Source of the DNA: a virus
IMG/VR virus record: IMGVR_UViG_3300033273_000282
Span: 124,001-188,000 of that record
DNA length: 64,000 nucleotides
Strand: one strand, 5' to 3'
Part shown: positions 3,391-47,800 of the stretch, piece after piece
Numbering within the stretch: position 1 is the first letter of the stretch
Layout of the letters: the number at the start of each line of letters is the position of its first letter
The notes under the pieces: model-generated
What the model saw: the letters and a program-made list of their open reading frames with translations, nothing else
Databases searched by the model: none
Told to the model about the DNA's origin: nothing
Program-made: the position numbers and the translations under genes

Positions 3391-3458
3391 AGTAGCTAAA
3401 GCTCATCCTTGAACCCGCTACACTGTAGAGTCTACTCCTGAATCCCTTCTTTGTCAAG

Positions 3459-3466
3459 TATAAATA
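3459..3466 (+). promoter_or_regulatory. T4-type late promoter TATAAATA
   Basis: TATAAATA lies in the 95-base gap between the first gene and gp8, 27 bases before the gp8 ATG. It matches the T4 late promoter core that is read by the gp55/gp33/gp45 machinery. The rest of the gap shows no clear terminator. Confidence 0.75.
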
Positions 3467-3485
3467 CATCTAAAAGCTTTGTCTG

Positions 3486-11690: not shown

Positions 11691-12004
11691 TGGATTTTGA
11701 TAAAATTGAGGATATAGTTCGGAAGCGAGAACAAGAAGTTCTCGCTCGTCGTGATCAATCTGAGTATGAAAAAAATAGAGACATCAGAAGAGAACTTGGT
11801 CTGATGAAAGTTGAGGGTCATGAGCATCTTGGTCGTGACCCTAAAACTAATGCGATCGTAAACACTGACAAGAGTGGATACAAAGCCTACATTGAAGCAA
11901 GAGATAAGAACAAACTTAAACTCACTGAAACTCAAGAACTGAAGAACGAGATTAACGAACTGAAGGAAATGCTCAAACTTCTAGTCGAGAAGAACGATAA
12001 ATAA
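11690..12004 (+). CDS. Small charged coiled-coil protein, unknown function
   Basis: A 104-residue, highly charged protein not recognised as a T4 homologue. The last 30 residues (ELKNEINELKEMLKLLVEK) have heptad spacing and should form a coiled coil. The ATG overlaps the stop of the DUF4815 gene by one base, so translation is probably coupled and the two may work together. An accessory baseplate or chaperone role is possible but unsupported. Confidence 0.7.
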   Translation: MDFDKIEDIVRKREQEVLARRDQSEYEKNRDIRRELGLMKVEGHEHLGRDPKTNAIVNTDKSGYKAYIEARDKNKLKLTETQELKNEINELKEMLKLLVEKNDK

Positions 12005-12018
12005 GAGTGAGCTAAATA
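11996..12018 (+). promoter_or_regulatory. Two late-promoter-like cores (GATAAATA, CTAAATA)
   Basis: GATAAATA spans 11996-12003, overlapping the end of the preceding gene, and CTAAATA spans 12012-12018. They lie 44 and 28 bases before the ATG at 12040. The second has the spacing seen at the other late promoters in this window and is the likelier one. Confidence 0.6.
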
Positions 12019-12039
12019 CTAAAGAGAATATCTTAGCGA

Positions 12040-12378
12040 ATGGCATCTGCTGTATCCAACTTATTGATCTATCAGGGTGCTGATTTCACCATCGACTTTT
12101 CTGTCGAAAATGATAATGGCACTGAGTTCAATTTGTCAGGCTACTCTGCGGCATGTAAAATCAAGAAGCACTATACAAGTTCTTCCTCTGTAACTGTTAC
12201 TGCCGCGATTATTTCACCAGAGACGGCAGGACGTATTCAACTTTCGCTTAATAACTCGCAGACGGCAGCAATGAAGTCTGGTCGTTATGTTTATGATGTT
12301 GTTATCACTGCACCATCTGGTCTAAAAACTAGAGTGCTTGAGGGTACTGTTAGTGTTCTGGAGGGCGTTACACTCTAA
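12040..12378 (+). CDS. Small Ig-fold/BppU-N-like virion protein
   Basis: A 112-residue all-beta protein. The pattern (LLIYQGADFTIDFSV near the start, then AACKIKKHY, an RIQLSL strand, SGRYVYDVVI and RVLEGTVSV) is that of small Ig-like tail-accessory domains resembling the N-terminal domain of BppU. Such domains dock receptor-binding proteins to baseplates. The gene has its own late promoter and overlaps the next gene by one base, heading the fibre region. The family is inferred from the strand pattern. Confidence 0.7.
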   Translation: MASAVSNLLIYQGADFTIDFSVENDNGTEFNLSGYSAACKIKKHYTSSSSVTVTAAIISPETAGRIQLSLNNSQTAAMKSGRYVYDVVITAPSGLKTRVLEGTVSVLEGVTL

Positions 12379-12599
12379 TGGCAAGATTAAGATTCGGAGA
12401 TCAGTCAGTTCCTAGAGTGACCCGTGTCGCCACTGGTGGTGGCGGCGGAACAATTGGCGCACTTGCGGACATTGACTTGACCGACACATCGTTGGGTGGC
12501 TTACAGGATGGCAGCTTGCTCGTTTATGACAGCAACTCAACTAAATTCATTCCTACTACGGTTCTGAACAACATCACAGTTAACGGGGGTACCTTTTAG
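12378..12599 (+). CDS. Short fibre-like virion protein
   Basis: A 73-residue protein with an Arg-rich start, a run of five glycines, then GALADIDLTD and GSLLVYDSNSTKFIPTT. This LVYD-x-x-x-x-KF module is common in cyanophage fibre proteins. It ends in NGGTF, and the next protein ends in DGGTF, so the shared tail may be an assembly or interaction tag. It overlaps both neighbours by one base. Confidence 0.7.
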   Translation: MARLRFGDQSVPRVTRVATGGGGGTIGALADIDLTDTSLGGLQDGSLLVYDSNSTKFIPTTVLNNITVNGGTF

Positions 12600-33116: not shown

Positions 33117-33869
33117 ATGAGTAGGTTATACGTAAATAATATCCGCGCTTACAGCGGATCAACTATTTCCATTCCTGCCACTACTGCCCTCTCTCTTGGT
33201 GGAGCCAAGATTGACGAGAACTCTGTTCTGCCCAGTGCTTCTGGGCAGGCTAACCGAGCAGTTGGTAGTGATGGTGAGCAAGTTGTATATGACACTTACG
33301 GTGCTCAGTCGATCCAAGTGTTCCAAAGTTCTGGAACATACACTAAATCGGCTGGCGTCAATACCGTTCTTGTCAGGCTTGTAGGTGGCGGTGGTGGTGG
33401 TTCAGGTCATGCTGAATCTGGTGGTGCTGGTGGATACGCTGAAAGAGTTTGCGATGTATCTGGAGTAAATACAGTATCCGTTGTCGTTGGACAGGGTGGT
33501 GCTGGTACTTACTACTCTGGTAGATCGAGCCAAGGTGGTTCTACTTCATTTGGTTCTTTCTGTTCTGCTACTGGTGGCGATGGCGCTAACCAGTCTTTCC
33601 AACATGCTGGTGGACTGGGGGGAATCGGTGCTGGTGGAGATGTTAATATGTACGGCGGCGGTGGATCTGCCCACGGTAGATATAACGGAGCAGGTGGATA
33701 TTCCTTCTTCGGTGGTTGCGCTGCTAGAGGACACCCCCGTGGTGGCGACTATTCAAGAAACCACCAATCAAGATGTGCTCCTGGATCGGGTGGCGCTAAC
33801 GGCTGGTTTCGATCCTACCTCGGACCAGATGGTAAACACGGTATGGTAGTAATCTGGGAATTTAAGTAA
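33117..33869 (+). CDS. Glycine-rich adhesin-like protein, copy 1
   Basis: A 250-residue protein and the first of three tandem paralogues. The N-terminal third is a short beta region (MSRLYVNNIRAYSGSTISI, then FQSSGTYTKSAGVNTVLVRL). The C-terminal two-thirds are glycine-rich (VGGGGGGSGHAESGGAGGY, TYYSG, ANQSFQHAGGLGG, MYGGGGSAHG, RGHPRGGDYS), ending in VVIWEFK. Glycine-rich scaffold strands alternate with short variable loops rich in Tyr, His, Ser and Asn. This recalls the T2 gp38 adhesin, which caps fibre tips, but no direct homology is claimed. It follows the giant fibre by eight bases, as gene 38 follows gene 37 in T2. It has more cysteines than its siblings (FCSATGG, GGCAARG, SRCAPG). Confidence 0.75.
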   Translation: MSRLYVNNIRAYSGSTISIPATTALSLGGAKIDENSVLPSASGQANRAVGSDGEQVVYDTYGAQSIQVFQSSGTYTKSAGVNTVLVRLVGGGGGGSGHAESGGAGGYAERVCDVSGVNTVSVVVGQGGAGTYYSGRSSQGGSTSFGSFCSATGGDGANQSFQHAGGLGGIGAGGDVNMYGGGGSAHGRYNGAGGYSFFGGCAARGHPRGGDYSRNHQSRCAPGSGGANGWFRSYLGPDGKHGMVVIWEFK

Positions 33870-34644
33870 ACAATGTCTATTCTTAAGGTCAATGAATTGA
33901 GAGCCCAGTCGGGCAGTAACGTAACCATTCAAAGTGGTTATAGTCTTCGCCTGGGAACTAAGACACTGGATGCTTCTAGTGTTATGCCCTCGCCCTCTGG
34001 TCAGAATGGTAAAATTCTTACCAGTAATGGATCTACTAGATCATGGACTGAACATGGTGCCGTATCGATGCAGGTATGGACTTCCAATGGAACTTGGAGC
34101 AGACCATCTGGGGTAAAGAGAATTCTTGTTAGAATCTCTGGTGCTGGCGGTGCTGGCTCGGGTGTTGGTGAAGCAGGTGGTGCTGGTGGATACGCTGAAG
34201 AAATTATCGACGTTACTGGTATCTCTTCTGTTTCTATTACTGTAGGTCAGCCTGGTTCCTGGGGTGGTACTTACTACTCAGGTGGTGCTGCTAATGGCGG
34301 TACTACTTCTTTCGGTAACTATCTCTCTGCCTCTGGTGGTAACGGTGCTAACCGTAATTACCAGCACTGTGGAGGACTTCCTGGCGTAGGCTCAGGTGGT
34401 CAACTTAACATCTACGGTGGCGGTGGATCTGGTCACGAGTATTGGTCTGGTTATCCTGGTGGCGGTTCCTTCTGGGGTGGCGCAGGTGCGACTGGTCACC
34501 CTCGCGGTGGTCACTATGCTTACACCCACCAATATAGAGCCGCTCCTGGTAGCGGTGGTTCTCCTGGGTATCACACTTCTCGTCGTGGTGCTAGGGGTAT
34601 GGCTGGAATCGTAGTAGTTTGGAACTTCGCATAAACAATGTCTA
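33867..34644 (+). repeat. 13-base junction repeat flanking adhesin copy 2
   Basis: TAAACAATGTCTA spans the stop of one gene and the start of the next at 33867-33879, and again at 34632-34644. The identical junctions bracket copy 2 and fit an origin by unequal tandem duplication. Confidence 0.65.
33873..34634 (+). CDS. Glycine-rich adhesin-like protein, copy 2
   Basis: A 253-residue paralogue of the preceding protein. The shared frame is VNELRAQSGSNVTIQSGY, then TWSRPSGVKRILVRISG, AGGAGGYAEEIIDVTG, TYYSGGAANGG, RNYQHCGGLPGVGSGG, NIYGGGGSGHEYWSG, ATGHPRGGHY, RAAPGSGGSPG and VVWNFA. Loops after TYYSG and after GGGGS differ from copies 1 and 3. The gene starts three bases after the previous stop, at a 13-base TAAACAATGTCTA junction that recurs before copy 3. 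The role proposed is distal receptor binding. Confidence 0.75.
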   Translation: MSILKVNELRAQSGSNVTIQSGYSLRLGTKTLDASSVMPSPSGQNGKILTSNGSTRSWTEHGAVSMQVWTSNGTWSRPSGVKRILVRISGAGGAGSGVGEAGGAGGYAEEIIDVTGISSVSITVGQPGSWGGTYYSGGAANGGTTSFGNYLSASGGNGANRNYQHCGGLPGVGSGGQLNIYGGGGSGHEYWSGYPGGGSFWGGAGATGHPRGGHYAYTHQYRAAPGSGGSPGYHTSRRGARGMAGIVVVWNFA

Positions 34645-35393
34645 ATATCCGTATCAATGAACTCGACGCTGCGTCGGGAACTACTATTCTTATCCCCGAT
34701 GGATACAATCTATCCCTCGGCGGCACTACGCTGAACAAGAACTCGATTCCCCCACCACCAGCGGGGAACGCTGGTAAGTTTCTTGTTAGTGATGGAACTT
34801 CTGCGTCGTATAAAAACATCGGTCCCGCTAGTATTCAGACTTTCTATAGCAGTTCTACTTGGACTAGACCTCCTGGGATTAACCGTGTTCTGGTCCGTGT
34901 AGTCGGCGGCGGCGGCGGTGGATCTGGACACTCAGAATCAGGCGGAGCAGGTGGCTATTCTGAAGAGGTAATCGATGTCCGTGGAATCTCGTCTGTTACT
35001 ATTACTGTGGGCAATGGCTCTACGGGCGGCACTTATTATTCTGGTAATGGCGGAGGCGGTCAGACATCCTCATTCGGAAACTACCTTTCTGCGTCGGGTG
35101 GTCTCGGTGCTAACCAGTCTTACCAACATTGCGGTGGTCTTGGTGGTTTGGGCTCTGGTGGCAATTTGAATATCTACGGTGGCGGTGGTATCGGACACAT
35201 GAACTACATGGGTCATGGTGGCGGATCATTCTTTGGTTGTGGCACCATGAGCGCTCATGGTAATTGGGTACAAGGTACCCGTTCTAACCAACTTCGTGCT
35301 GCTTATGGTGCTGGTGGAACGTCTGGTTATCAGCGTTCTTATCAAGGTGCCAATGGCATGCAGGGGTGCGTTATTGTAATGGAGTTTATTTAA
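34638..35393 (+). CDS. Glycine-rich adhesin-like protein, copy 3
   Basis: The third paralogue, 251 residues. It keeps TWTRPPGINRVLVRVVGG, GGGGSGHSESGGAGGYSEE, TYYSGNGGGG, NQSYQHCGGLGGLGSGG, NIYGGGGIGHMNYMG and GAGGTSGYQRS, ending in VIVMEFI. It lacks the HPRGG segment of copies 1 and 2: that loop reads SAHGNWVQG. The core resembles copy 2 more than copy 1 in the LNIYGGGG region. A late promoter for the downstream enzyme operon starts three bases after its stop codon. Three intact copies suggest alternative or mixed fibre tips. Confidence 0.75.
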   Translation: MSNIRINELDAASGTTILIPDGYNLSLGGTTLNKNSIPPPPAGNAGKFLVSDGTSASYKNIGPASIQTFYSSSTWTRPPGINRVLVRVVGGGGGGSGHSESGGAGGYSEEVIDVRGISSVTITVGNGSTGGTYYSGNGGGGQTSSFGNYLSASGGLGANQSYQHCGGLGGLGSGGNLNIYGGGGIGHMNYMGHGGGSFFGCGTMSAHGNWVQGTRSNQLRAAYGAGGTSGYQRSYQGANGMQGCVIVMEFI

Positions 35394-35395: not shown

Positions 35396-35402
35396 CTAAA
35401 TA
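35396..35402 (+). promoter_or_regulatory. Late promoter CTAAATA of the enzyme operon
   Basis: CTAAATA lies 30 bases before the ATG at 35426. No other late-promoter core was noticed until 44771, so this one probably drives about 9 kb of overlapping genes, including the halogenases and all six oxygenases. Confidence 0.7.
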
Positions 35403-35425
35403 GTTACCAAGGAATCTAGAGTAAA

Positions 35426-35941
35426 ATGGCTAAAAGTTGTCTTGTAGATTACAGAGGATTTATCACCGACATCAGAGAATGCGGTGATGAATTTGAAGTA
35501 TACCAAGGTCCCGATTCTCATATCCGCTGGGTCATTTGTGATGATGACAACGTGGATAATACTTGGGTCCTTTATAACGGGGAGTTTTTCCCTGGAGATC
35601 TTCGCCTGGAACGTAACCAGGATATGAAGCGTAAGGTTGCTTACGGATCGATCGAAGAGCAGTTGGACATGATGTACTGGGATCAGGTCAACGGAACGAC
35701 CACCTGGAGAGATCATATTGGCTCGATCAAATCAGCGGAACCCACTCAGTCCGTTGCTGACGCTGATCCTACCTTCTACGCTGATAAGCGAGAGTTTGAG
35801 ATGGGTACTGAGGATGCTCCTGCCTGGGAAACTCTTCCCGCAGTAAAGCGTCAGAAGATCACCACCTTCAAGAATGGGACAGTTTATGAAGAGGGCTGGG
35901 GTCCTGACCCTGTGACTGGCAAACCTGTTAGACTGGCTTGA
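35426..35941 (+). CDS. Small tail-type protein heading the enzyme operon
   Basis: A 171-residue protein. The first 60 residues (CLVDYRGFITDIRECGDEF, then DDDNVDNTWVLYNGEFF) form a small beta module seen in cyanophage tail proteins. The middle (YGSIEEQLDMMYWDQVNG, then WRDHIGSIKSAEP) resembles short segments in phage tail proteins where a G-x-I-x-x-QLD-x-x-Y motif precedes a helix. The C-terminus is charged and Trp-rich and was not recognised. It is the first gene after the operon promoter and is probably a virion component rather than an enzyme. It would be a candidate substrate or partner for the enzymes, but that is inference. Confidence 0.65.
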   Translation: MAKSCLVDYRGFITDIRECGDEFEVYQGPDSHIRWVICDDDNVDNTWVLYNGEFFPGDLRLERNQDMKRKVAYGSIEEQLDMMYWDQVNGTTTWRDHIGSIKSAEPTQSVADADPTFYADKREFEMGTEDAPAWETLPAVKRQKITTFKNGTVYEEGWGPDPVTGKPVRLA

Positions 35942-35958
35942 GGATATCCATCTAGATT

Positions 35959-37527
35959 ATGATTGATAAAATTTGTATTGTTGGCGGCGGCACCGCTGGA
36001 TGGATTGCCGCTGCTTCTTTGATTAGATTTTTTCCTAAAAAAGAAATTACTCTGATCGAATCAGAAGAGATCCCCACCATTGGTGTGGGTGAATCTACCA
36101 CCCAGTTCTTTAGAGACTGGACTCGGGAGATGTGTATCTCTGATGTCTGGATGGATGAGTGTGAAGCCACCTATAAGTACAGCGTGAAGTTTAGAAACTT
36201 CAGCGAGTACGGTGATTTCCATTACCCATTTTTTCCTGGTAAAGAGCCACCTAACGCAAAGCTGGGACTTCTGGATTGGTTCCTTCATTACCGTGCTACT
36301 AACGGTAATCCAGAAAAGTCCTTCTGTGAGTGGATGGTTCCTTATTGGAAAGTCATCGAAGATAATAAGGTTGTTCCTCGGGACGTTGATTACTTCAGCT
36401 ACTTGGACAATGCTGGGTATCATATGGATGCTCAGAAGTTTGCTGAGTATCTCCGTCGGGAGTTCTGTGTTCCTCGTGGCGTCAAGCACGTTAAGGGTAC
36501 AGTAACTGAGATTGATCACGATGAGACTGGTATCAAACGTCTATATGTTGGCGATGTGTTCTACACTGCCGACCTCTTTATTGACTGTACTGGATTTAAG
36601 TCTCTGCTTCTGGGTGAAACTCTGGGTACCGAATGGGATGAGTTCCCCTTCCTGATCAATGATCGTGCCTGGGCAGTTCGCCTGAAGTATAAGGACAAGA
36701 AGACAGAGATGCTCAACCATACTCTGTGTACCGCACTGGGTAATGGCTGGGTTTGGCATGTCCCCCTCAGCACTCGCTACGGCACTGGATATAACTTCAG
36801 CAGTAAGTTCATCTCTGATGAGGATGCTCTGGAGGAGTTCAAGTCGCACCTGGGCGAAGAATTTGAGGATCGTCAAATCAGTGACTTCCGTTTGATCAAG
36901 TGGAAGAACGGTATCTCTAAGAAGATCTGGAATAAGAACGTCGTTGGTATTGGACTCTCTGCTGGCTTCATTGAACCCCTGGAATCCAATGGACTCATGA
37001 GTGCTCATAACTTTGCCATGTATCTGTGTGATGCTCTGACAGCACATAATGGTAAGGTGAACACATTGATCAAGGATCAGTTCAACCGTCGCTGTCGTCA
37101 GAACTTCCAGAACTTTGCTTACTTTGTGGGCAACCACTTCATGTTATCCACCAGGGATGATACACCCTACTGGAAGTACATCACTCAGGATATTGATTAT
37201 CTCAGTGCTCACGTTCAAGATGAGTATCGAGTGTATCCTCAGAACCAGATCTTCCTGGACATGCATGACATGAGCATCTGGAATATGAGTAACCTTGAAG
37301 GTAACGCATATCTTGCTGCTGGATTCAACCAGCATCCAGTTACTGAATGGCACGCTGACTACATGGAGAGGCGGCATAGCCTTGACTTAAGTCAGTGGAG
37401 GACGCTAGAATCTGGGTACGAACTCCACCCCGATGCGGTGAGGGAGATCGATGAATTTCCAACACCAGCAGAGTTCTACTATGAGGACGTTGCTGGTATA
37501 GACATGCCCTACTACATTCATGGCTAA
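35959..37527 (+). CDS. Flavin-dependent tryptophan-halogenase-like enzyme 1
   Basis: A 522-residue protein of the PrnA/RebH family, which uses FADH2, oxygen and halide to make a hypohalous species that halogenates aromatic substrates. Visible hallmarks are the FAD-binding GGGTAGW at residues 9-15, ATYK with the predicted catalytic Lys73 (PrnA Lys79), IDCTGFKS at 208-215, the WVWHVP motif at 264-269 (family W-x-W-x-I-P) and EPLESNG at 339-345, whose Glu342 matches the halide-site Glu of PrnA. A viral member, VirX1 of cyanophage Syn10, was shown to prefer iodide. A separate flavin reductase is needed and none was seen here. It overlaps the next halogenase by eight bases. Confidence 0.9.
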   Translation: MIDKICIVGGGTAGWIAAASLIRFFPKKEITLIESEEIPTIGVGESTTQFFRDWTREMCISDVWMDECEATYKYSVKFRNFSEYGDFHYPFFPGKEPPNAKLGLLDWFLHYRATNGNPEKSFCEWMVPYWKVIEDNKVVPRDVDYFSYLDNAGYHMDAQKFAEYLRREFCVPRGVKHVKGTVTEIDHDETGIKRLYVGDVFYTADLFIDCTGFKSLLLGETLGTEWDEFPFLINDRAWAVRLKYKDKKTEMLNHTLCTALGNGWVWHVPLSTRYGTGYNFSSKFISDEDALEEFKSHLGEEFEDRQISDFRLIKWKNGISKKIWNKNVVGIGLSAGFIEPLESNGLMSAHNFAMYLCDALTAHNGKVNTLIKDQFNRRCRQNFQNFAYFVGNHFMLSTRDDTPYWKYITQDIDYLSAHVQDEYRVYPQNQIFLDMHDMSIWNMSNLEGNAYLAAGFNQHPVTEWHADYMERRHSLDLSQWRTLESGYELHPDAVREIDEFPTPAEFYYEDVAGIDMPYYIHG

Positions 37528-39085
37528 AAGTATTTGTATTATTGGCGGTGGCAGTTCAGGATGGATGACTGCTGCCGCTTTTGCTGTCCGTTTTCCAGAT
37601 TGGGATATCACTCTAGTTGAAAGTGAGTGGTCTAAGGCTATTGGTGTAGGCGAATCCACCCTAGGGCATTTTAATCGGTACCTGGATTGTTTGGGTATTG
37701 AGGATAAAGACTGGATGCCTGCGTGTAGCGCAACCTATAAAGTATCGATCCAGTTTACCAACTGGAAGAACGAAGGTGATGTCTTCCAATATCCTTTCGG
37801 GGACTTTGACTTTTCCCGTGGAGGATTCCTAGATTGGTATCATCTTCACAACTTCTTTCCAGAAAAGTTCCCTGATACATCGTTTGCTGAGTTCTACAAT
37901 CCGATCTCCTTCTTGGCTTCTGCCAATAAGATGTGTGATACGGATCAATATATTCCAAACTTTAGCAGACGCTGGAACGCCGCCTACCACTTTGACGCTG
38001 ACAAGTTCGGGCAGTGGTTGCGGGAGAACCTCTGTAAGGATGTAACCCATCACAGAGGTGACATCTGTGGAGCCGTACATAAACACACGGGTGATATTGC
38101 TTACCTGCTCGATGAAGAGGGGCACCAATATCATGCTGATTATTTTATCGACTGTACTGGATTTAAGTCAGCAATCCTAGAAGGATTCATGGGAGTTCCC
38201 TTTATCTCCTTTGAGAATGATCTCCCTAATGATTCGGCAGTAGCAGCACGTATCCCCTACACTAATCGTAGGGAACAGATGAGAAATACTACCGATGGGT
38301 ATGCTCTGGATAATGGCTGGGTGTGGACTATTCCCACTTGGGATCGCATTGGTACTGGTTATGTGTACTCATCTAAGTTCTGCTCACAGGAGCAGGCAGA
38401 GAAAGAGTTCCGTGAGCATGTTAAGTGGGACGGAGAAGTTAAGCACATTAAGTTCCGTCATGGTAAGCACAAGTATGGATGGTCTAAGAATGTCATTGGT
38501 ATTGGACTATCTTATGGTTTCCTAGAGCCACTAGAATCCACAGGTCTCTTTACTACACATGAAAATATCCTAAGACTGATTGACACCTTTGAAAGAAGGA
38601 ACGGCAAGATCACTCAACTGGATATTGACGGATTTAATCACGCTGTATCATACGAACTTGAAGCAATGAAAGAGTTTGTGTACATGCATTATTATCTGTC
38701 ACCTAGAGATGACACTCCTTACTGGAGGTATTACACTGAGCGCAGTCCACTGACATATGAGGAAATGTATGATAAAGTGGTAAGGTCACCTAGACTGTAC
38801 CAGGAGTTCATACATAACTTCAATATCGCTAATGCTCCCAAAGACCTTGGAGGATTGGTCTATATCGCTGCTGGTCTTGGATACCATCCATTGACTATGA
38901 CGGATAGTCTTCATACGAGAAATCGTAAAGAGTATCCTCAAGAGGAAATGGAAACCACTGTTACACAGTTTGAGAAATATAAGACCAGTCTAGAAAGGCA
39001 CGTTGCTAAACTCCCAAGTCACTATGATTACCTTGTTGAAAACATTTATGGGGTTGATAAAGAAACCCAAAAAACCTCGTGCTAG
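37520..39085 (+). CDS. Flavin-dependent tryptophan-halogenase-like enzyme 2
   Basis: A 521-residue paralogue of the preceding enzyme, clearly diverged from it. The FAD motif is GGGSSGW at 9-15. The predicted catalytic Lys74 lies in ATYK, with IDCTGFKS at 210-217, the WVWTIP motif at 267-272 (closer to the canonical form than the first copy) and EPLESTG with Glu339. All expected catalytic residues are present, so both copies look active. The two differ in the substrate-facing segment between about residues 90 and 160, which suggests different substrates or positions. It overlaps halogenase 1 by eight bases and the next gene by 38. Confidence 0.9.
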   Translation: MAKSICIIGGGSSGWMTAAAFAVRFPDWDITLVESEWSKAIGVGESTLGHFNRYLDCLGIEDKDWMPACSATYKVSIQFTNWKNEGDVFQYPFGDFDFSRGGFLDWYHLHNFFPEKFPDTSFAEFYNPISFLASANKMCDTDQYIPNFSRRWNAAYHFDADKFGQWLRENLCKDVTHHRGDICGAVHKHTGDIAYLLDEEGHQYHADYFIDCTGFKSAILEGFMGVPFISFENDLPNDSAVAARIPYTNRREQMRNTTDGYALDNGWVWTIPTWDRIGTGYVYSSKFCSQEQAEKEFREHVKWDGEVKHIKFRHGKHKYGWSKNVIGIGLSYGFLEPLESTGLFTTHENILRLIDTFERRNGKITQLDIDGFNHAVSYELEAMKEFVYMHYYLSPRDDTPYWRYYTERSPLTYEEMYDKVVRSPRLYQEFIHNFNIANAPKDLGGLVYIAAGLGYHPLTMTDSLHTRNRKEYPQEEMETTVTQFEKYKTSLERHVAKLPSHYDYLVENIYGVDKETQKTSC

Positions 39086-39854
39086 ATTCTTTAGCCTGAT
39101 TCCTGGGGCGCATACTTTGTACCCTGTGGTTCGATCTGAAGAACTCGATCGGGATTGGATTAAGCAAGAGAAAGAAGACTATAGGGAACGGCAAACTAAG
39201 TGCCCTATGGCTAATATCATAAACGCGATTCCTTTTAACCAACCCCATAGTATTGGTAAGTGTCCAGCGATTAACTCTGTGATGCGAACTGGGTATGTTG
39301 TTCGTGCTCCAGCTGACTTTAAGGTCCATACTAATGGAGATGGACATACCATCCTCTTTACCACAACTGCTTTCAGTCCTCCTGGATCTGACTATGTGGT
39401 CCTTCACGATAGTGATACGGCTAAGTGGTTGATGGATTCAACTAAGGATAATGTTATCGATCAGGTTATCAAAGTCAATACGTGTTGGAGAGTACAAGCA
39501 GATGATGATATTGTGTTCCTCCAGACTAAGGTTCCTTTTGTAAATGAATCTCGTTTCAGCGCTATTACTGGTATCCTTGATCCACGATCGGCTTATGAAA
39601 TCAATGTTCAACTCTGGTGGCATGTGAAGGAAGGGGATGAAACTATCAAAGCAGGAACTCCCCTAGCATGTTATGTCCCTATCTCTCGCAAGCTTCTAGA
39701 AGATCTGAATGTGGATATCGACATAGCCACTCCAGAAGATTATGTTCTAGAGAACGAGTTTCAATATACAGCCTATAATGAATTTCCTGACACGGTGAAT
39801 GTTACCAGGCGTCAGTTAAAAACAAACAAGATCCTTCGCAAGTATTGGAAATGA
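39048..39854 (+). CDS. DUF6065-like protein
   Basis: About 268 residues from the ATG at 39048; a TTG at 39003 and an ATG at 39024 are alternative starts, and no good ribosome site decides. Features include RARFFSLIPGAH near the start, KCP-x-I-x-S-x-MRTGY-x-V-x-APADF in the middle, then VNTCWRVQA, FLQTKVPFVNESRFSAITGI and GTPLACYVPISRK. This order (a CP motif, a GY and PAD strand, a W strand, a GTP-L-x-x-x-x-P strand) resembles the DUF6065 family, whose function is unknown. The call is from pattern memory only. It overlaps halogenase 2 by 38 bases, which places it firmly in the enzyme operon. Confidence 0.65.
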   Translation: MGLIKKPKKPRARFFSLIPGAHTLYPVVRSEELDRDWIKQEKEDYRERQTKCPMANIINAIPFNQPHSIGKCPAINSVMRTGYVVRAPADFKVHTNGDGHTILFTTTAFSPPGSDYVVLHDSDTAKWLMDSTKDNVIDQVIKVNTCWRVQADDDIVFLQTKVPFVNESRFSAITGILDPRSAYEINVQLWWHVKEGDETIKAGTPLACYVPISRKLLEDLNVDIDIATPEDYVLENEFQYTAYNEFPDTVNVTRRQLKTNKILRKYWK

Positions 39855-40231
39855 ACATCCCCACATTTAATACACCTGAACACCAAGAAGAGTTTGAACT
39901 CGTCTTTGCTGAAAAAGCAGTAGAGTATGTCAAACTCATGAATGTTGTGAGAGAACTGATGTATGGTACTGGTAATGGTAACTATGCTAATCTCCCTGGA
40001 TCATGCCTAGAAATAGTCAATGACATCACACGTTCTCTACTCTATGATTGTGAAACTCAATTCAAAGAGTATCACCCAGAGTATAAGACTGATGAAGATG
40101 AGATCTTCATTCCACGTAAGTCATTCAAAGAAAATGTAACTGAAGCACTGCTAGAAGCAAACCAGAAGTTCTGGAATAGTGGTGATGAACCTACCGAACT
40201 ACAGTGCGTTGATCATCTTACTGACGAGTAA
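39851..40231 (+). CDS. Small helical protein of unknown function
   Basis: A 126-residue protein starting at the ATG of an ATGA overlap with the previous stop. It is mostly helical and acidic (TPEHQEEFELVFAEKAVEYV, then CLEIVNDITRSLLYDCETQF). It was not recognised. The next oxygenase starts inside its stop codon (TAATG). The tight coupling suggests a partner or substrate-presenting protein for the enzymes, without direct support. Confidence 0.65.
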   Translation: MNIPTFNTPEHQEEFELVFAEKAVEYVKLMNVVRELMYGTGNGNYANLPGSCLEIVNDITRSLLYDCETQFKEYHPEYKTDEDEIFIPRKSFKENVTEALLEANQKFWNSGDEPTELQCVDHLTDE

Positions 40232-40836
40232 TGACTATCCATCCTTTGTTCTCGGTTCCAGTATTCAAGGGGCATCTTTGCCCCACCGAATATCAAGAAG
40301 CCGAGTTTGATGATATCCTCAACAGGATGTTTTTGGATTGTAAGTTGGGTGACTTTACTGGGGAGACTGGGTTGTCTACCGCACCCAACGGTATGAACCT
40401 TCATAAGATCTCAGAGTTGAAATGGTTCTGGGAGAGAATTGATTATGCTGTGCGAGACTACTGGGTAAACATCCTTGGATATAGGAGGATGTCTTACGTT
40501 GAGTGTCAGCACTCTTGGGCAAACAAACACTTTTCTAATGACAGCACCGCAGAGCACAGTCATAGAGATGGTTGGAATGGTAGATGTCAGGTCTCTGGCG
40601 TATACTACTTTAAGAAGCCAAAAGGATCTTCTAACATCCACTTCTGTAATCCAAACGATTATATTTTAAGGATGACTCCATACGAGCACATGACAGGCAT
40701 AGATACTATATCTACTGAAGTGACAGCAGAGCAGTACGATTTTATTCTCTTCCCCTCCTGGGTTAGACATAGAGTCCCACCAAGCAATGCTTCTCAGAGG
40801 ATCGCTATATCATTTAATTACCTTGGTTATGATTGA
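40231..40836 (+). CDS. 2OG-Fe(II) oxygenase-like protein 1 (PF13759-like)
   Basis: A 201-residue protein of the putative 2-oxoglutarate/Fe(II) oxygenase group typical of cyanophages. The double-stranded beta-helix core shows H109-S-H111-R-D113 (an H-x-D iron motif), VSGVYYFKKP, then FILFPSWVRHRVPPS with the distal His180 and R190 for the 2OG carboxylate before IAISFNYLG. The N-terminus (IHPLFSVPVFKG) matches the family start. Such enzymes hydroxylate proteins or small molecules; the substrate cannot be read here. It overlaps the neighbour genes by one and eight bases. Confidence 0.85.
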   Translation: MTIHPLFSVPVFKGHLCPTEYQEAEFDDILNRMFLDCKLGDFTGETGLSTAPNGMNLHKISELKWFWERIDYAVRDYWVNILGYRRMSYVECQHSWANKHFSNDSTAEHSHRDGWNGRCQVSGVYYFKKPKGSSNIHFCNPNDYILRMTPYEHMTGIDTISTEVTAEQYDFILFPSWVRHRVPPSNASQRIAISFNYLGYD

Positions 40837-41611
40837 AGACTTTAAGATTCTTCCAGTCCCTAAACACTTAGCACTCTTTGTCAAGCCATTTGATGAGTGG
40901 AACTGGACTTATCACGGGTACTACTGGCGTATCCGTGATATGTTCTATGAACTAGATAAGTTTATTGAAGTCCTTAAGTGCTATCCCATTGAGGATATGA
41001 ACAATGCTGATAGTGCGGACGATCCGAACCCTTTCGCGCAAACGTCGATACCTTATTGGATATTTGCCCCCATAGCGGAGCAGATCAGAAACTTCATCAT
41101 TGTCAATCACTTCAAGCAAGAAGTATCTTTCTCGCTACACGATGAGCGTCTCTCTGAGTGGGGTAACGTATACTCTAAGAAACACTCTAGACCTGTTGGG
41201 TGTTGGCAAATGCCCCATCGAGATTTTGGTACCGATGAAGGATTCATTGGCAACCTCTGGCTTTCTCACCACGAACCAAATGAAACAGGAACCGCGTTCT
41301 TTGACTATAAAGGAACGATTGATGAGGGACGGTACGATTTCCAAATCGATCCAAATCACCACAGGTATAAAGAGTGGCATAATTGGCACGGAAGCGGAGC
41401 CGATCACGACGACCGATGGATCAACTTCGACTCAAATAAGCAACGGCATTGGGGTTTCATTAAGAGAGGTTTCGCAGCAGCTGAATATGGAACTATGACA
41501 CTTTACGATGCGAACGCTATCCACTCACCGTACATCCCTGATAGTGTAGAATGGCGTTGGAGCCATTGCTTCGGATTCAAGTATACTCCTTTACGAAATG
41601 TTCTTAGATGA
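40829..41611 (+). CDS. 2OG-Fe(II) oxygenase-like protein 2
   Basis: A 260-residue protein; the ATG at 40829 overlaps the previous gene by eight bases. The likely iron triad is H130-R-D132 in QMPHRDFG and H232 in NAIHSPYIP, followed by R243 in SVEWRWSHCFGF. The beta-strand spacing (GFIGNLWLSHH, TGTAFFDYKG, YGTMTLYDANAIH) fits the 2OG-dioxygenase jelly roll, but the N-terminal 100 residues are unlike those of its neighbours. An unusual His/Trp/Asp-rich insertion (HNWHGSGADHDDRW) sits between the motifs. The family assignment is from the motif and is less secure than for oxygenase 1. Confidence 0.7.
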   Translation: MIEDFKILPVPKHLALFVKPFDEWNWTYHGYYWRIRDMFYELDKFIEVLKCYPIEDMNNADSADDPNPFAQTSIPYWIFAPIAEQIRNFIIVNHFKQEVSFSLHDERLSEWGNVYSKKHSRPVGCWQMPHRDFGTDEGFIGNLWLSHHEPNETGTAFFDYKGTIDEGRYDFQIDPNHHRYKEWHNWHGSGADHDDRWINFDSNKQRHWGFIKRGFAAAEYGTMTLYDANAIHSPYIPDSVEWRWSHCFGFKYTPLRNVLR

Positions 41612-42161
41612 AATCTTCCCTACCCCAATATGGGGAGCGGATCTCAATCTTGATGTGGATAGCATCATGTATTGGGCATACCGCCAGAAAGAAGAAGATG
41701 AAGGTAGGATCATATCTAATGTTGGTGGGTGGCAATCAAATGATTACAGAAATTTTTCTGGAACTCCACTCCTCCCCCTGACGGAGGCAATTTCTAAGCT
41801 TGCTATTCAAGCCAGCGAAGACCTGGGTATACCAGAACCTGCTGATGCTATTGTTAACTTGTGGGTTAACATCAATCCTAGACTTTCATATAATCAAGTT
41901 CATGTACACCCTGAGTGTAAACTGTCTGGTGTCTTCTATGTGAAAGCAGAGAAGGATTGTGGTAATCTTTGTTTTACTAGAGGATCTAATGACTTTGCTC
42001 TAGGAACGGTTGCTCCGAATCAAACTAGATATAGTAGTGCTGAATATGAGTACACGCCTAAACCAAATCGCTTGATTATTTTCCCAGCGTGGGTGATGCA
42101 TCATGTGAAAGCTAATCTATCCTATTCTGATAGGATATCTTTGTCATTTAATTTACGATGA
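41598..42161 (+). CDS. 2OG-Fe(II) oxygenase-like protein 3 (PF13759-like)
   Basis: A 187-residue protein of the same group as oxygenase 1. It has EIFPTPIWGADL at the start, LWVNINPRLSYNQVHVHPE with H102, H104 and E106, CKLSGVFYVKAE, then RLIIFPAWVMHHV with the distal His and R179 before ISLSFNL. The acidic ligand is Glu rather than Asp, which is known in this group. The resemblance to oxygenase 1 is partial, so the two are diverged paralogues and not a recent duplicate. It overlaps the previous gene by 14 bases and the next by 4. Confidence 0.85.
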   Translation: MFLDEIFPTPIWGADLNLDVDSIMYWAYRQKEEDEGRIISNVGGWQSNDYRNFSGTPLLPLTEAISKLAIQASEDLGIPEPADAIVNLWVNINPRLSYNQVHVHPECKLSGVFYVKAEKDCGNLCFTRGSNDFALGTVAPNQTRYSSAEYEYTPKPNRLIIFPAWVMHHVKANLSYSDRISLSFNLR

Positions 42162-42772
42162 AAGAGTTTAAGAATTTTCTACCAGTATCTCAAGCACTTG
42201 AGATTCATGACATCCTTACTTCTAGTATCTTCCCATGGTACTGGCTTGATGATGTAACTGTTTCTCCTGAGGAGAGAGATGAGGTTCCAGCATATTACAG
42301 GTCTCAACCTGGAATGCATCATACTCCTTTTGTTGATGGTCGCGCTAGTGAGTGGTACGATAAGTTTAGTTTCATCTATCACTACATTCTGGATGCGATG
42401 GAACTGGATTATAAGGAATGGCAACTGGCTCGGATTCGATGTGGATTAAACTTCCCCACCTTTAGGGATGAGCACATGCTCCACAACCAGCCACACATTG
42501 ATTACCCAGAGACTCAAGTGGGGGATCACTTCACCTGTCTGTATTATGTGAATGATTCGGACGGTCCTACAGTTGTGTTCAACGAAACCGAAGAGTCTGA
42601 TAAGTACACAATTAAGTATCAGTGTCATCCAGAAAAGAATAAACTCTTTGTCTTTAATGGTAAGCACTATCACGCATCCTCATGTCCCAAGCATCATGAT
42701 GCTAGAATGGCATTGACAATTAACCTTTGTAGCAGAACTCGAAATGTGGAACAGTTTCTTCGCGGCGTCTAA
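42158..42772 (+). CDS. 2OG-Fe(II) oxygenase-like protein 4
   Basis: A 204-residue protein starting at an ATGA overlap. The motifs are QPHIDYPE (H113, D115), HFTCLYYVNDSDGPTVVFNE (the jelly-roll strands), then FVFNGKHYHASSCP with His172 and R183 before MALTINLCS. This is the prolyl-hydroxylase-like order H-x-D ... H ... R. It is closer to the P4H-type group than oxygenases 1 and 3 are. The substrate is unknown. Confidence 0.8.
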   Translation: MKEFKNFLPVSQALEIHDILTSSIFPWYWLDDVTVSPEERDEVPAYYRSQPGMHHTPFVDGRASEWYDKFSFIYHYILDAMELDYKEWQLARIRCGLNFPTFRDEHMLHNQPHIDYPETQVGDHFTCLYYVNDSDGPTVVFNETEESDKYTIKYQCHPEKNKLFVFNGKHYHASSCPKHHDARMALTINLCSRTRNVEQFLRGV

Positions 42773-43427
42773 TTTATTAGGCAAAGATCAAGCGGCTTAC
42801 GTTCCAGATTTTCTCAAGTCTCCTGAGAAGTATTGTTCTTGGGAGACTGTAGAGGATGCCTTACATAGATCCGATATGTATTGGGAACTCATCAATCCCA
42901 ATGGGGGCAAAGATGATGTCGGTGAGTATAAACCAGCATGGGCTAGAACACCAGACCAAGACAAAAGGCACATTCATGATCACATCATGAGTGGTAAAAG
43001 TTTTGTTATCTTGTCTTATAGTAGAGCGAACGCTAGAGTTAGATCTCTATGTGCTGAGATAGAAAGGCACTTCAATGTGAATACTGACATCCATGTATAT
43101 GGAGCGAGAGATTCTGCTAATTCTTTCAAGTGTCATTATGATCACTTTGCCAATTTCATCATCCAATGCGAGGGTGAAACTGATTGGGTAGTCTATAAGA
43201 ACAGGGCTACCTCTCTATGGGAAGCAAAGAATGATAAACCTGTAGATGAATCAAATTATGAAGTTGACTGGAAGGGGGTTCTCAAACCTGGAGATATGCT
43301 GTATATTCCAGATAGGGCGTGGCATAAAGCCACACCAACTTCCAGAAGACTGTCAATGAGCATCCCATGTATGCCCACTGTGATACCCTCTAATTTCTAT
43401 GACCGAACTCATTATAAAATCACATAG
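42744..43427 (+). CDS. JmjC/Cupin_4-like oxygenase 5
   Basis: A 227-residue protein. The central SFKCHYDHFANFIIQCEG (H131, D133), then TDWVVYKN and GDMLYIPDRAWHKATP with His194 followed by RRLSMSIP, is the cupin-4/JmjC arrangement. It is seen in ribosomal-protein hydroxylases and related peptide hydroxylases. This subfamily largely acts on protein side chains, which favours a protein substrate for the cassette. It overlaps the previous gene by 29 bases and the next by 29. Confidence 0.75.
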   Translation: MWNSFFAASNLLGKDQAAYVPDFLKSPEKYCSWETVEDALHRSDMYWELINPNGGKDDVGEYKPAWARTPDQDKRHIHDHIMSGKSFVILSYSRANARVRSLCAEIERHFNVNTDIHVYGARDSANSFKCHYDHFANFIIQCEGETDWVVYKNRATSLWEAKNDKPVDESNYEVDWKGVLKPGDMLYIPDRAWHKATPTSRRLSMSIPCMPTVIPSNFYDRTHYKIT

Positions 43428-44031
43428 AAAACCATTTGTCAAACTGGTTAGGCAAATGGTATCTCCTAATGTTATTGATCTTCTTGCTACCGAGTTTAGG
43501 CTTATGCGAGATGCTCTAAAAGCAATGGGAAACAATGAGGGTTACAATGACCCTACTGTCCCAAACACATTTTCTTGGTACTCTCCCCTTTGTTTCGAGT
43601 CTCTAAGTTTGGTTCTCCAACCAAAAGTCGAGAGGATCTTAGAAGAGAAATTGTATCCGACCTATTCTTATGGTCGCATATATACTGAAGGTAGCGAGCT
43701 TGTTCGGCACGTTGACCGAAGAAGTTCTGAAGTAGCAGTAAACGTCAACATCGCAAGGGATGAGGAGCACCTATCGTTCCTCTACTTTGAATGGGAAGGC
43801 AATCTAAGAAAGGTTGACCTTGAGCCAGGAGATGTGGTAATATATTCAGGATCACTCATTCCCCACTGGCGTGAGAAGTATACTGGTCGAGAGCAAATGA
43901 ATGCTTTCATGCAGTATGTCTTTGCTAATGGTCACTACAGTGATCTAAAGTATGATACCCGTCCCTATCTTGCTACTCCATATGAGCTGACAGAAGGACA
44001 CATTAAAGATGAAGTGAAAAACTATGTCTGA
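43399..44031 (+). CDS. 2OG-Fe(II) oxygenase-like protein 6
   Basis: A 210-residue protein. It shows LYPTYSYGRIYTEGSELVRH followed by V and D106 (the H104-x-D106 motif), then VAVNVNI, LSFLYFEWEG, and LEPGDVVIYSGSLIPHW with His156, followed by R158/R164 and MQYVFANG. The layout is the standard 2OG-Fe(II) jelly roll of the P4H type. The N-terminal helix (KLVRQMVSPNVIDLLATEF) is typical of such domains. It overlaps the JmjC-like gene by 29 bases and the next by 8. Confidence 0.8.
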   Translation: MTELIIKSHRKPFVKLVRQMVSPNVIDLLATEFRLMRDALKAMGNNEGYNDPTVPNTFSWYSPLCFESLSLVLQPKVERILEEKLYPTYSYGRIYTEGSELVRHVDRRSSEVAVNVNIARDEEHLSFLYFEWEGNLRKVDLEPGDVVIYSGSLIPHWREKYTGREQMNAFMQYVFANGHYSDLKYDTRPYLATPYELTEGHIKDEVKNYV

Positions 44032-44293
44032 AGAAACAACAACCGAAGGTCTCTTGGATTTTACGGAGGTGTGGGATGACTTTGTTGAGCAGCTTCTCGC
44101 TTGCCGTAAAGAGGTTAAAGAGCGTGAAGATGAACTCGAAAAAAATTCTGCTCTTCTAACTCGTGTAGACCTCAGCGAACTCAATGAAGTTCGTAACAAG
44201 TGCCTTAAGCTTGAAGGTGCTTGTGAAGCCCTTGACCTTGTACGCACCAGAGTTATGGGTGAAGAATCCAAAATCCAAAGGAGTGAAGCATGA
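44024..44293 (+). CDS. Small coiled-coil protein of the enzyme operon (first)
   Basis: An 89-residue acidic helical protein (EQLLACRKEVKEREDELEKN, then NKCLKLEGACEALDLVRTRV). It is predicted to be a coiled coil and has no recognised family. It overlaps oxygenase 6 by eight bases and its own small partner by four (ATGA), so the two products are probably made in step and may form a complex. Confidence 0.65.
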   Translation: MSEETTTEGLLDFTEVWDDFVEQLLACRKEVKEREDELEKNSALLTRVDLSELNEVRNKCLKLEGACEALDLVRTRVMGEESKIQRSEA

Positions 44294-44493
44294 CTATTGA
44301 AGAAATGATTAAAGATTTTGAAGAGCAGCGCGGTAAAATCCGTGGTGAAATCTCTGAGATCGAAGACGCACTGAAAGCCAGACAAGAACAACTCTTGCGT
44401 CTTGGTGGCGCAATCGAAGGTCTCCGTCTGGCTGAAAAGAATCTAGACGCCGCACCCGTTGCTACGGGTAACGTAGAGGTTGCCGCTGACTAA
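44290..44493 (+). CDS. Small coiled-coil protein of the enzyme operon (second)
   Basis: A 67-residue protein with a continuous heptad-like stretch (EEMIKDFEEQRGKIRGEISE, then LKARQEQLLRLGGAIEGLRL) and an Ala/Val-rich tail. It is related in style to the preceding protein (both end in a GA-x-E-x-L-x-L-x-x helix), which suggests duplication. It is the last gene of the operon; its stop overlaps the stop of the minus-strand gene. Confidence 0.65.
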   Translation: MTIEEMIKDFEEQRGKIRGEISEIEDALKARQEQLLRLGGAIEGLRLAEKNLDAAPVATGNVEVAAD

Positions 44494-44765
44494 AGCAGTG
44501 CCTTGCTGCTGAGCATATCATGCTTCTCATCGAATTCAAATCTTTGAGGAGCATGAGTCCTATCACCAGCAACGATTAGGTAATATCTTTTACCGTAAAT
44601 ATTTTTGGTAATACCGATGGATCTGATTTCTCTTCCATCATATTTACCACCAACTTCGTAGGGGACAGTCTCTGGAGTACCGTCAAACTGTGGTTTGATA
44701 CGGGACCAAAGATGTTCCCTTTCTCTGTATTCGCCAGTAATTGGCTTTCTATCTCTTAACGACAT
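44490..44765 (-). CDS. Minus-strand small protein of unknown function
   Basis: This 91-residue protein is the only convincing minus-strand gene in the window. The start at 44765 gives MSLRDRKPITGEYREREHLW; a longer frame to 44819 would run through the late promoter and is unlikely. The product is charged, with a beta strand NIYGKRYYLIVAGDR near the end. It fills the 319-base interval with no plus-strand gene. It converges on the enzyme operon and diverges from the protease gene, with a TTTATA stretch complementary to the late promoter upstream. It may be expressed outside the late programme. No family was recognised. Confidence 0.6.
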   Translation of the reverse strand: MSLRDRKPITGEYREREHLWSRIKPQFDGTPETVPYEVGGKYDGREIRSIGITKNIYGKRYYLIVAGDRTHAPQRFEFDEKHDMLSSKALL

Positions 44766-44770
44766 TAGGG

Positions 44771-44778
44771 TATAAATA
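44771..44778 (+). promoter_or_regulatory. T4-type late promoter TATAAATA
   Basis: TATAAATA lies 42 bases before the protease ATG, in the 47-base divergent gap next to the minus-strand gene. Confidence 0.7.
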
Positions 44779-44812
44779 CAAAAGAGGATAACACTGACCT
44801 GGACAGGCGTAC

Positions 44813-47800
44813 ATGGCAACCCTATTAGTTAAGGTCGCAGACTCATTTGACGTTAACGATGTAAAGGATACTCTCCTTAGTCAGCATGATTATTTAGAGT
44901 TTGTAAAGACACTTAGATCATTCCGTACCATCAGATTCAGCGTGGCAGACGAGAATGCTACTGCCGAGAATTTAGAAAGCGTACGTCTAACCGAGGGTCT
45001 CCAAGGAGCCACCTGGGACAGAGAGTTTCGTGTCACCGATTATGATGACGGTGGCGAAGTATTGAATGTAGAGTATGTAGGTGATGAAGTTGAAGAAACT
45101 GATGCTCAACTTCAAGACACCAAGAATACCAGAATTCTTTCTACTGGTTCTGGTGGTACTATCTACGTTCGTGTTCAGAACTTTCCTGCTGGTCCAAGAT
45201 ATACATTCTCAACTATCAGCGGTGGTCCTTTCAGCAGGATCAGTACCTTTACTGGCTTCCTCCAAGGCGGTACATATACTTTTGACCAGTCAGACTCCTC
45301 AAACGCAGGTCATCCTCTTAGACTCTCTATTACTCCAGACGGCACTTGGACTGCTGGTGGCGTTATTTACTCTACGGGTGTAACTGCTGCTGGTACTCCT
45401 GGACAGTCTGGTGCGTACACTAGAATTGTAATTAGTTCTAGTACACCTTCTGTTCTCTATTGGTATAACACCAACTCTTCCAACTACGGCAACTATAACG
45501 ATAGTCCTGCTCGTTTTGGTAAGTTATGTGTTCATGACTTTTGGCATCTTGACAGAATTACAAAACAGAATCGTTCTTACATGAACGGTGTCTACAATAG
45601 CCCAGAGGAAGGCGACGGATGCGACCTCTACGTTATTGATACTGGTGTTCGTGGTTCTTCTAGACCCACTGGTAACAACGCTGCGCTCCACCCAGAACTG
45701 TATGATCCCGACAACATCACCGACCTGAACGGTACTTCGGAGCAACAGTCTTATCGTGTATATGAAGTAACTGGATTCCAATCTGGTTATACCGTTGGTG
45801 GTAGTGCTAACTCTAACGAAGATGACCAGGGTCATGGTACCAACTGTGCTATCTGTGCCGCTGGTATTAAAGCAGGTGTGGCTCGAAAGACAAAGATCTA
45901 TGCCCTGAAGGCTTTCAACAGCGGTGGTAGTGGATCTCTTTCCGACATCATTGATGCTTATCAGGCAGTCCTTGATCACAACGATTCAGGTCACCCCAAC
46001 TACAAGGGCAACACAAGACCTGCTGTCATCAACGCTTCCTTTGGTCCCACAACTCCAAGCGGCGCTTTCCCTTACGTTGAGATTAACGAGAGCGGACAAG
46101 ATGCTGGCTTCGATCTGGAACTCTATGACGAAGTTGAAAAAATAATCGTTGATAATAACATTATCCTTGTCAGATCTGCTGGTAATGGATTTATCGACGC
46201 CTCTTCTAACTTCGCTGGTCCTCTCCAGACAAGATATGTTGCTGGCGCTAGATCCTCTGGTTTCTCTGACAATGATGTAAACTATCAGGACGTTAATATC
46301 AAGAGCATCGCGGTTGGTGCTTCTGATTACAACGACCGTTGGGCAGACTTCTCCAACTATGGTTCTGGTACAACCACAGTTGCTCCTGGTGCTCACCTAA
46401 CAATCCCAAGATACGACTGGACCGCTAACACTCCATACACCAGCACTGGTAACTATGGAAATATCAGTGGTACTTCGTTCTCTAGTCCCATCGTTGCTGG
46501 CATCATGTGTCAGTGGGTAACCTCTAATAACTATACTCTGGGAACTAGTGATGTACCTGGACTGGCTAAAACGTTCATCCGTACATCAGGTCCTGTTAGT
46601 GACATTTCCGCCGTTAGCAGTTCGGCATATCCAATCAACACTGCTACTGAATACAAACTACCATCTGATCCATTTGCTACAACGGCATCTAGCACTGCGC
46701 TGAAGATTTCTTTCCCACCAGCACAGTCTTCGGTATTCCTCAACAACATTAACAAGTATATCCAGTTCAGAGTTGGCGCTTCTTCTCTGACTGTTGGTGG
46801 TGTTAATATCAAGGATGAATCCTATCAGTGGCACCAGATTACAGCACAGGATCCTGTAAACAATACGATCACCATCACCCTTCAGAACGCTGCTACTGGC
46901 ACAGCGTCTGGTGGTGGATCAAATAATTTCATGTGTATCATTTCGGATACCCATGAATTTACCGATGGACCTGAGTTCAGCAATGTTACTCTCTATGCTG
47001 AACTTGATTCCGAGGAGGCTACTCATAGTGGTAGAGCCATCAACAACATCCCCGTACACACAGGGGTTGACTTTGATGCGTCTAGCACTAATGACGTGAT
47101 CTCCAAAGTAATGGGTATGTTCAACCCATTCATTCCTAAAACAATCTCTTGGTATACTAGCGCGGGAGATCTTACTAGCGGTCAAGGATATGACAACGGA
47201 GATTCCGTCAACGTACAACTTGGCATCCAAACTATTGTTTCATATGCTAGTGAGCCATTTACTGCTAGAGAATATAGTCTGACTGGTGATGACATCAGCA
47301 GCACTGGATTGACATTCAGCACTAGCTCTGGTGTTCTCTCTGGTACAGTAACTTCTAGTTATCAGGATCTCACATTCAATATCACAGTCACCGAAGTAAA
47401 GAGCGGTGAGTCTCGTAGTTATTCCTTCCAGACAAACGGAACGGGTGTTCTTGTATTCGTTACATCTCAGCCCGTTGACCAAGTTATAGAAGCTGGTGCT
47501 GGGACTAACGCTACGTTCGGTCCCCTTGGAGGATACTCTTCTGATGGTTCTACTGTTACTTATCAGTGGCAGATTTCCACAGACAATGGAAGCAACTGGT
47601 CCAACATCAGTGCGTTGGCTGGACACTCTGGAGAAACTACCGAAACTCTGACTGTTGATGATGATTTCGCATTCAACGGTTATCAATATCGTTGTATTCT
47701 AGACTCCAACACTGCGGTACAGACAACAACAACTAATGTTGCTAACCTAAGTCTGTACAGAGTTATCACAGTATCGACAGACCCACAACCACAAAGCGTT

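Follow-up and report, generated by a model that had tools for sequence, protein, structure and literature searches.

The DNA analysed here, a stretch of 64,000 nucleotides that we call the window (bases 124001-188000 of the 200,309-bp virus record IMGVR_UViG_3300033273_000282), contains a cassette of halogenase, oxygenase and small-protein genes directly behind three genes for glycine-rich proteins that are predicted to be tail-tip adhesins. The cassette is followed by T4-like cyanophage genes (gp13-like neck, head closure, sheath stabiliser, terminase, sheath, tube and portal). According to our analysis the halogenases and this adhesin family are linked in a near-obligate manner and are gained or lost together, and we suggest that the enzymes modify the adhesin tip.

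Gene content of the locus

A first-pass annotation of the same DNA described a 13-gene unit behind one CTAAATA site, with two halogenases, five proteins similar to 2-oxoglutarate (2OG)-Fe(II) oxygenases and one JmjC protein, and this gene content was confirmed by Pfam profiles and conserved residues. The 13 open reading frames (35426-44493) all lie on the plus strand and are closely packed or overlap, with successive spacings of +17, -8, -38, -10, -1, -50, -14, -4, -29, -29, -8 and -4 nt, of which the -50 (before the 40787-41611 gene) becomes -8 if an alternative start at 40829 is used. The unit is bordered upstream by the adhesin trio (33117-35393), which should be counted into the functional unit as well, and downstream by a minus-strand gene and then a subtilase protein. 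The features are as follows (E, expectation value).

33117-33869, plus strand: glycine-rich tail-tip adhesin 1, predicted (phrog_863, E 1.9e-51)
33873-34634, plus strand: glycine-rich tail-tip adhesin 2, predicted (51-55% identity to the adjoining adhesins)
34638-35393, plus strand: glycine-rich tail-tip adhesin 3, predicted (PF21722, E 2.4e-7; model similar to the Pam3 fibre)
35396-35402, plus strand: late-promoter-like site CTAAATA, 30 nt 5' of the first ATG and its only copy within the unit
35426-35941, plus strand: phrog_1787 protein, putative tip chaperone (E 1.4e-19), directly 3' of the adhesin in 75 of 76 loci
35959-37527, plus strand: flavin-dependent halogenase 1 (PF04820, E 6.8e-92; conserved K73, E339, E342 and WVW)
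37520-39085, plus strand: flavin-dependent halogenase 2, VirX1-type (PF04820, E 2e-104; conserved K74 and E339)
39048-39854, plus strand: phrog_7084 protein, distantly related to DUF6065, with a predicted dUTPase-like fold (phrog_7084, E 5.6e-52)
39845-40231, plus strand: small protein phrog_10289 (E 2.6e-41), with a TTG start, rare among other cassettes
40231-40836, plus strand: 2OG-Fe(II) oxygenase-like, PF13759, HxH (E 2.1e-14; H109, H111, H180, R190)
40787-41611 (start maybe 40829), plus strand: 2OG-Fe(II) oxygenase-like, phrog_1644 (H130xD132..H232..R243 in 45 relatives)
41598-42161, plus strand: 2OG-Fe(II) oxygenase-like, PF13759, HxH (E 4.6e-22; H102, H104, H168, R179)
42158-42772, plus strand: 2OG-Fe(II) oxygenase-like, phrog_274 (H113xD115..H172..R183 in 124 relatives)
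42744-43427, plus strand: JmjC-domain oxygenase (JmjC_2 PF08007, E 4.7e-19; H131xD133..H194..R202)
43399-44031, plus strand: 2OG-Fe(II) oxygenase-like, phrog_2954 (H104xD106R107..H156xR158 in 36 relatives)
44024-44293, plus strand: small helical protein (PHROG match, phrog_20247/580)
44290-44493, plus strand: small helical protein (phrog_580, E 1.6e-11)

Both halogenases have the features of variant A flavin halogenases, as had been claimed for two intact PrnA-type enzymes: the PF04820 profile, a GxGxxG motif (GGGTAG and GGGSSG), a WxWxxP motif (WVWHVP and WVWTIP, where V replaces the I of WxWxIP in halogenase 1) and the catalytic Lys and Glu that correspond to K79 and E346 of PrnA. Halogenase 2 is related to VirX1 of phage Syn10 (PDB 6qgm, phmmer E 7.5e-137), with the same catalytic Lys and Glu and with about 43% identity to the Syn9/Syn10 gene, and adhesin and JmjC genes are located nearby in Syn10 as well. 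Halogenating activity was demonstrated for VirX1, whose active site is large and open and which accepts broad aromatic substrates (PMC8407142), while the window enzymes are assigned from sequence; VirX1 has been described as such an enzyme and its link to an adhesin is unmentioned in the reviews of it (PMC8407142, PMC10452541).

The statement that all enzymes keep their catalytic motifs held for the halogenases, for the JmjC protein (profile PF08007 and HxD..H) and for three of the oxygenases, but not for the two PF13759 proteins. An iron triad HxD/E..H with a 2OG-binding Arg is invariant or nearly so among the 45, 124 and 36 relatives of the phrog_1644, phrog_274 and phrog_2954 proteins. Pfam gives no significant match for these three (40829-41611, 42158-42772, 43399-44031), and their PHROG and RefSeq labels "minor coat protein", "DNA endonuclease V" and "ferrochelatase" do not fit the conserved HxD..H residues, which make "oxygenase" the better name; a role in DNA repair, as the endonuclease label would imply, was rejected on the same ground. 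The two PF13759 proteins match their profile and carry an invariant HxH..H..R where 2OG oxygenases have HxD (HxH in 73/73 and 149/150 relatives, 222/223 together), with no conserved Asp or Glu two positions after either His, and their iron site may consist of three His. Known JmjC hydroxylases of the PF08007 family act on ribosomal or other cellular proteins. The cassette JmjC protein and the three oxygenases share fold family and iron-binding residues with such JmjC and 2OG protein hydroxylases, but the cassette genes are tied to adhesins and two of them have HxH.

The CTAAATA site stands just 5' of the first gene, as a late promoter element does in late units of the T4 type. Over the whole window the motif shows no excess (5 copies versus 8 expected), but within 50 nt upstream of genes it was found 9 times across the genome versus 0.74 expected (200 random draws, maximum 4), so that the earlier reading of it as a late promoter element gained support. 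Since the motif is enriched near gene starts, and since S-PM2 and Syn9 are known to have late promoters of NATAAATA type (PMC2984593), late expression of the cassette is likely.

The adhesins combine a glycine-rich domain, a tip-like predicted fold and a position after a fibre gene. The AlphaFold2 model (pLDDT, a per-residue confidence score, 84.7) has its best match in the fibre of phage Pam3 (PDB 7ypx, E 2.9e-7, TM structural-similarity score 0.53), followed by the Bxb1 tail tip and the glycine-rich domain of ALK, from which we predict that these are host-binding tip proteins. In Pam3 the glycine-rich receptor tip gp24 has a dedicated chaperone, gp25 (PMC9608196). The small phrog_1787 gene adjoins the adhesins in a position like that of gp25, and by this analogy we regard its product as a putative chaperone; it has no Pfam or PDB profile match, including none to gp25. 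A further difference is that the Pam3 fibre was produced in E. coli and solved without modifying enzymes (PMC9608196).

Five non-glycine residues, E100, Y134, N159, H164 and H187, are 93-99% conserved across 251 adhesin clusters, and all five are missing from five PF21722 proteins of cyanobacterial chromosomes that are unlinked to halogenases. Compared with these five, a small and remote set, halogenase-linked adhesins are rich in His (5.1 versus 0.6%) and Tyr (5.3 versus 2.7%). The five residues are the first candidates for modification.

Linkage of the halogenases to one adhesin family

Profiles built from the window genes were iterated over IMG/VR loci. In each of two adhesin scans, which took the best 80 matches, every evaluable locus had a halogenase downstream: 75/75 in the first, at a distance of 453-2279 nt, and 70/70 in the second, which was seeded with divergent adhesins and whose contigs overlap with those of the first. 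The 144 adhesin loci correspond to 101, 72 or 41 halogenase clusters under increasingly lax criteria, 72 being the middle setting. In the opposite direction, 48 of 58 VirX1-like halogenase loci with at least 4.5 kb available upstream have an adhesin on the same strand no more than 3 kb upstream; among these 48, three adhesin copies were found in 41 and an intervening phrog_1787 gene in 46. A control scan based on gp13, which is blind to the module, revealed an adhesin or halogenase in 0/24 loci (8-10 kb upstream).

The enzymes that accompany the halogenase are frequent, and their set varies. In 54 loci that extend at least 9 kb past the adhesin, halogenase was present in 54, phrog_1787 in 53, phrog_274 in 50, the C type of PF13759 in 48, JmjC in 44, phrog_7084 in 43, the A type of PF13759 in 42, phrog_1644 in 35 and phrog_2954 in 33, with a median of six oxygenases per locus. 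The giant fibre of the window is unrecognisable upstream in 67 of 120 adhesin loci, some of them short, which leaves the adhesin and phrog_1787 as the constant virion-linked partners of the enzymes.

Isolated phages agree with the metagenomes. The adhesin gave tblastn matches in 20 phage records, each of which also carries a VirX1-like halogenase, whereas for gp13 the matched records with the names Synechococcus phage or Cyanophage number at least 439; a tblastn search of phage records with a divergent adhesin found nothing, perhaps due to low-complexity filtering. Thus the cassette travels with the adhesins, and the outcome which the first-pass annotation had named as fatal for its proposal, enzymes scattered and unlinked to fibres, is the opposite of what these surveys gave.

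Genomic sites and joint exchange

Gene order in eight annotated records is the same: fibre, adhesins, phrog_1787, one or more halogenases, phrog_7084 if present, and then oxygenases and JmjC. The block occupies two sites. At the first (the window, Sf-FP1 and S-RIM44) it ends near the neck gene gp13, and at the second (syn9, P-TIM40, P-RSM6, S-WAM1, S-SZBM1 and S-CREM1) it stands behind other fibre genes, and what comes next is not gp13 but small genes, a helicase or a methyltransferase. At the nucleotide level the cassette gave only a 333-bp megablast match to phage records.

Two isolates, both named S-RIM44, are especially informative. From gp13 to the sheath gene they are 96.6-97.7% identical, and NC_047734 has the adhesins and the cassette where KX349295 has neither, with four short genes instead; of the fibre before the swap site only pieces align, at 71-79% identity. 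As the isolates differ in adhesins and cassette together, we conclude that adhesin and enzymes were gained or lost here as one unit. The species name S-RIM44 spans genomes with and without the adhesin cassette.

Two other phages place halogenases beside different tip proteins. In Sf-CH11 a VirX1-like halogenase and four oxygenases lie between fibre and gp13 (6731-12893 of its locus), with GspG-like and LamG-like proteins as tip genes in place of the glycine-rich adhesins, and the freshwater phage S-SRM01 (9887-12468 of its locus) has a distant halogenase between a fibre gene and a different, Cys/Trp-rich glycine-rich adhesin. These arrangements suggest a wider theme of tip modification.

Bacterial flavin halogenases show a certain likeness, as in 6/6 checked marine loci a TonB-dependent receptor gene lies a few kb upstream of the halogenase. 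However, their identity to the phage enzymes is at most 36%, and 0/80 of the nearest bacterial halogenase loci match the adhesin, phrog_1787, phrog_7084 or JmjC models, so that inheritance of the whole cassette from a bacterium was rejected.

Concerning the remaining members of the unit, the phrog_7084 protein had been called DUF6065-like, and only a distant relation could be retained: 3 of 15 relatives match the DUF6065 profile PF19541 (best E 3.7e-4) and the window protein itself does not. Its model matches the dUTPase fold (Foldseek E 2.5e-4, TM 0.56 by target and 0.33 by query length) and the dUTPase catalytic Asp is not conserved, the only polar residues at 95% conservation being C63, H111, K133 and W138, therefore the protein may be a structural or binding part. 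PDB sequence searches with phrog_7084, adhesin and phrog_1787 alignments gave nothing useful. Two viral contigs (L110 and L112, about 2000-11600) carry four tandem phrog_7084 genes with many oxygenases and one halogenase, and had no adhesin match. At the end of the cassette a minus-strand gene (44490-44819, phrog_26228, E 7.2e-23) is convergent with it, and next comes a 1713-residue protein (44813-49954) that has a subtilase domain and, behind it, weak Ig-like matches, and whose gene precedes gp13; S-RIM44 and Sf-FP1 have no such subtilase protein before gp13.

Proposed adhesin modification and its alternatives

From the data presented above it would be logical to regard the region as a receptor-binding module in which three adhesins are joined by a probable tip chaperone and by a set of late enzymes transcribed with them, and we think it likely that these enzymes modify the adhesin tip as it is assembled or earlier. 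Adhesins, putative chaperone and enzymes would be produced together in the late phase of infection. The halogenases would add halogen to aromatic side chains (Tyr, His or Trp) of the glycine-rich domain, a host reductase supplying the FADH2 (reduced flavin adenine dinucleotide) and seawater the halide, while the five 2OG-like oxygenases and the JmjC oxygenase could hydroxylate other side chains, and the chaperone and the dUTPase-fold protein might present or recognise the tip. The tip, modified before or while it is assembled, would then be mounted on the fibre, and the enzymes need not become virion components. The host-binding surface may be hardened or chemically diversified in this way. 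With somewhat less assurance we favour the broader proposal that a dedicated, adhesin-locked and horizontally exchanged cassette halogenates and hydroxylates the receptor-binding tips of its own phage, and that this is the natural role of viral flavin halogenases.

Several observations weigh against adhesin modification. Ten of the 58 VirX1-like halogenase loci from IMG/VR have no adhesin, nor have the VirX1-like halogenases of S-B64 and S-MbCM6 an adjoining one, which means that not every phage halogenase belongs to the system. The adhesin scans, with their best 80 matches each, were seeded with adhesins already linked to halogenases, and the unlinked PF21722 controls are five only. The accessible part of the S-SZBM1 virion proteome report gives fibres gp52-54 in its table, and adhesins gp48-49 are unmentioned in the text, as is halogenase gp46; predicted usable tryptic coverage of the adhesins is only 41-53%, and mass shifts may hide peptides, though to invoke this is an excuse and not evidence. 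Finally, E100, H164 and H187, instead of being modified, could bind a metal.

Of the two kinds of substrate named by the first-pass annotation, virion adhesins or fibres are thus favoured by the near-obligate link to one adhesin family and by the empty control, with the reservation that some VirX1-like halogenases stand elsewhere. A host-surface or ribosomal peptide gained no support, no precursor-like peptide being seen; the small proteins at 44024-44493, considered as precursors of ribosomally synthesised and modified peptides, were rejected because they look helical and are poor in aromatic residues.

The enzymes may act instead on another virion protein, such as the long fibre, phrog_1787 or a baseplate part, and the adhesin would be only a neighbour in an exchanged module. 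Fibre and adhesin do lie together, the fibre too differs between the S-RIM44 isolates, and in Sf-CH11 and S-SRM01 halogenases follow a fibre gene in the company of other tip proteins. Nevertheless, the adhesin family stays constant in loci where the fibre cannot be recognised, and we hold this explanation to be unlikely, though it survives best among the alternatives.

Published treatments of such genes are metabolic or antibiotic ones (PMC9964418, PMC2984593, PMC3037559, PMC10452541): protection by a pyrrolnitrin-like antibiotic (PMC9964418, PMC2984593), 2OG signalling (PMC3037559) and halogenation of host metabolites (PMC10452541) were proposed. The enzymes would then serve to produce a halogenated antibiotic or small metabolite, or shift 2OG levels of the host, and the more distant phage halogenases of P-SSM2, Syn1 and S-MbCM6 are indeed located among metabolic genes. 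Auxiliary metabolism leaves unexplained the near-obligate adhesin linkage, the position of the late-type promoter and the joint exchange with adhesins, and for this cassette it appears rather improbable to us.

Still less probable is hitchhiking, that is, genes carried as cargo of a hypervariable tail-fibre exchange region and functionally unrelated to the adhesin. It is known that fibre regions are hot spots of exchange, for instance near gp5 with tRNAs (PMC3037559), and the oxygenase set varies between loci; but 145/145 evaluable locus counts in one direction, an order kept at two sites and 0/24 in the gp13 control exceed what loose cargo would lead one to expect. That the adhesin binds a metal, cofactor or ligand made or altered by the enzymes, through its conserved Glu and His, is hardly to be believed, since the cassette has no recognisable gene for ligand synthesis or transfer, even though halogenase-linked adhesins keep two His and one Glu almost without exception and the controls lack them.

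Phage-directed modification of virion proteins is known in general, glycosylated virions being an example, and a system of this kind is therefore not new as such. The likeness is that phage enzymes alter the surface of their own virion; the difference is that our cassette has halogenases and Fe(II) oxygenases in place of glycosyltransferases and is dedicated to one adhesin family. What would be new here is a dedicated cassette by which receptor tips are halogenated and hydroxylated. No publication was found that joins halogenase and tail fibre in the sense of adhesin modification, in a search that left subscription papers mostly outside.

VirX1-like viral halogenases are known catalysts whose natural substrate is not established, and cyanophages carry many 2OG oxygenases with a role only guessed at. 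The near-obligate linkage merges these two questions into one and suggests the adhesin as a likely target. If our proposal is true, phages adjust their binding to hosts through side-chain chemistry invisible in the sequence alone, and the chemistry of host recognition would be extended beyond the twenty amino acids. The enzymes would then be protein-modifying halogenases and oxygenases useful in biocatalysis, and a group of "auxiliary metabolic genes" would move from metabolism to virion assembly.

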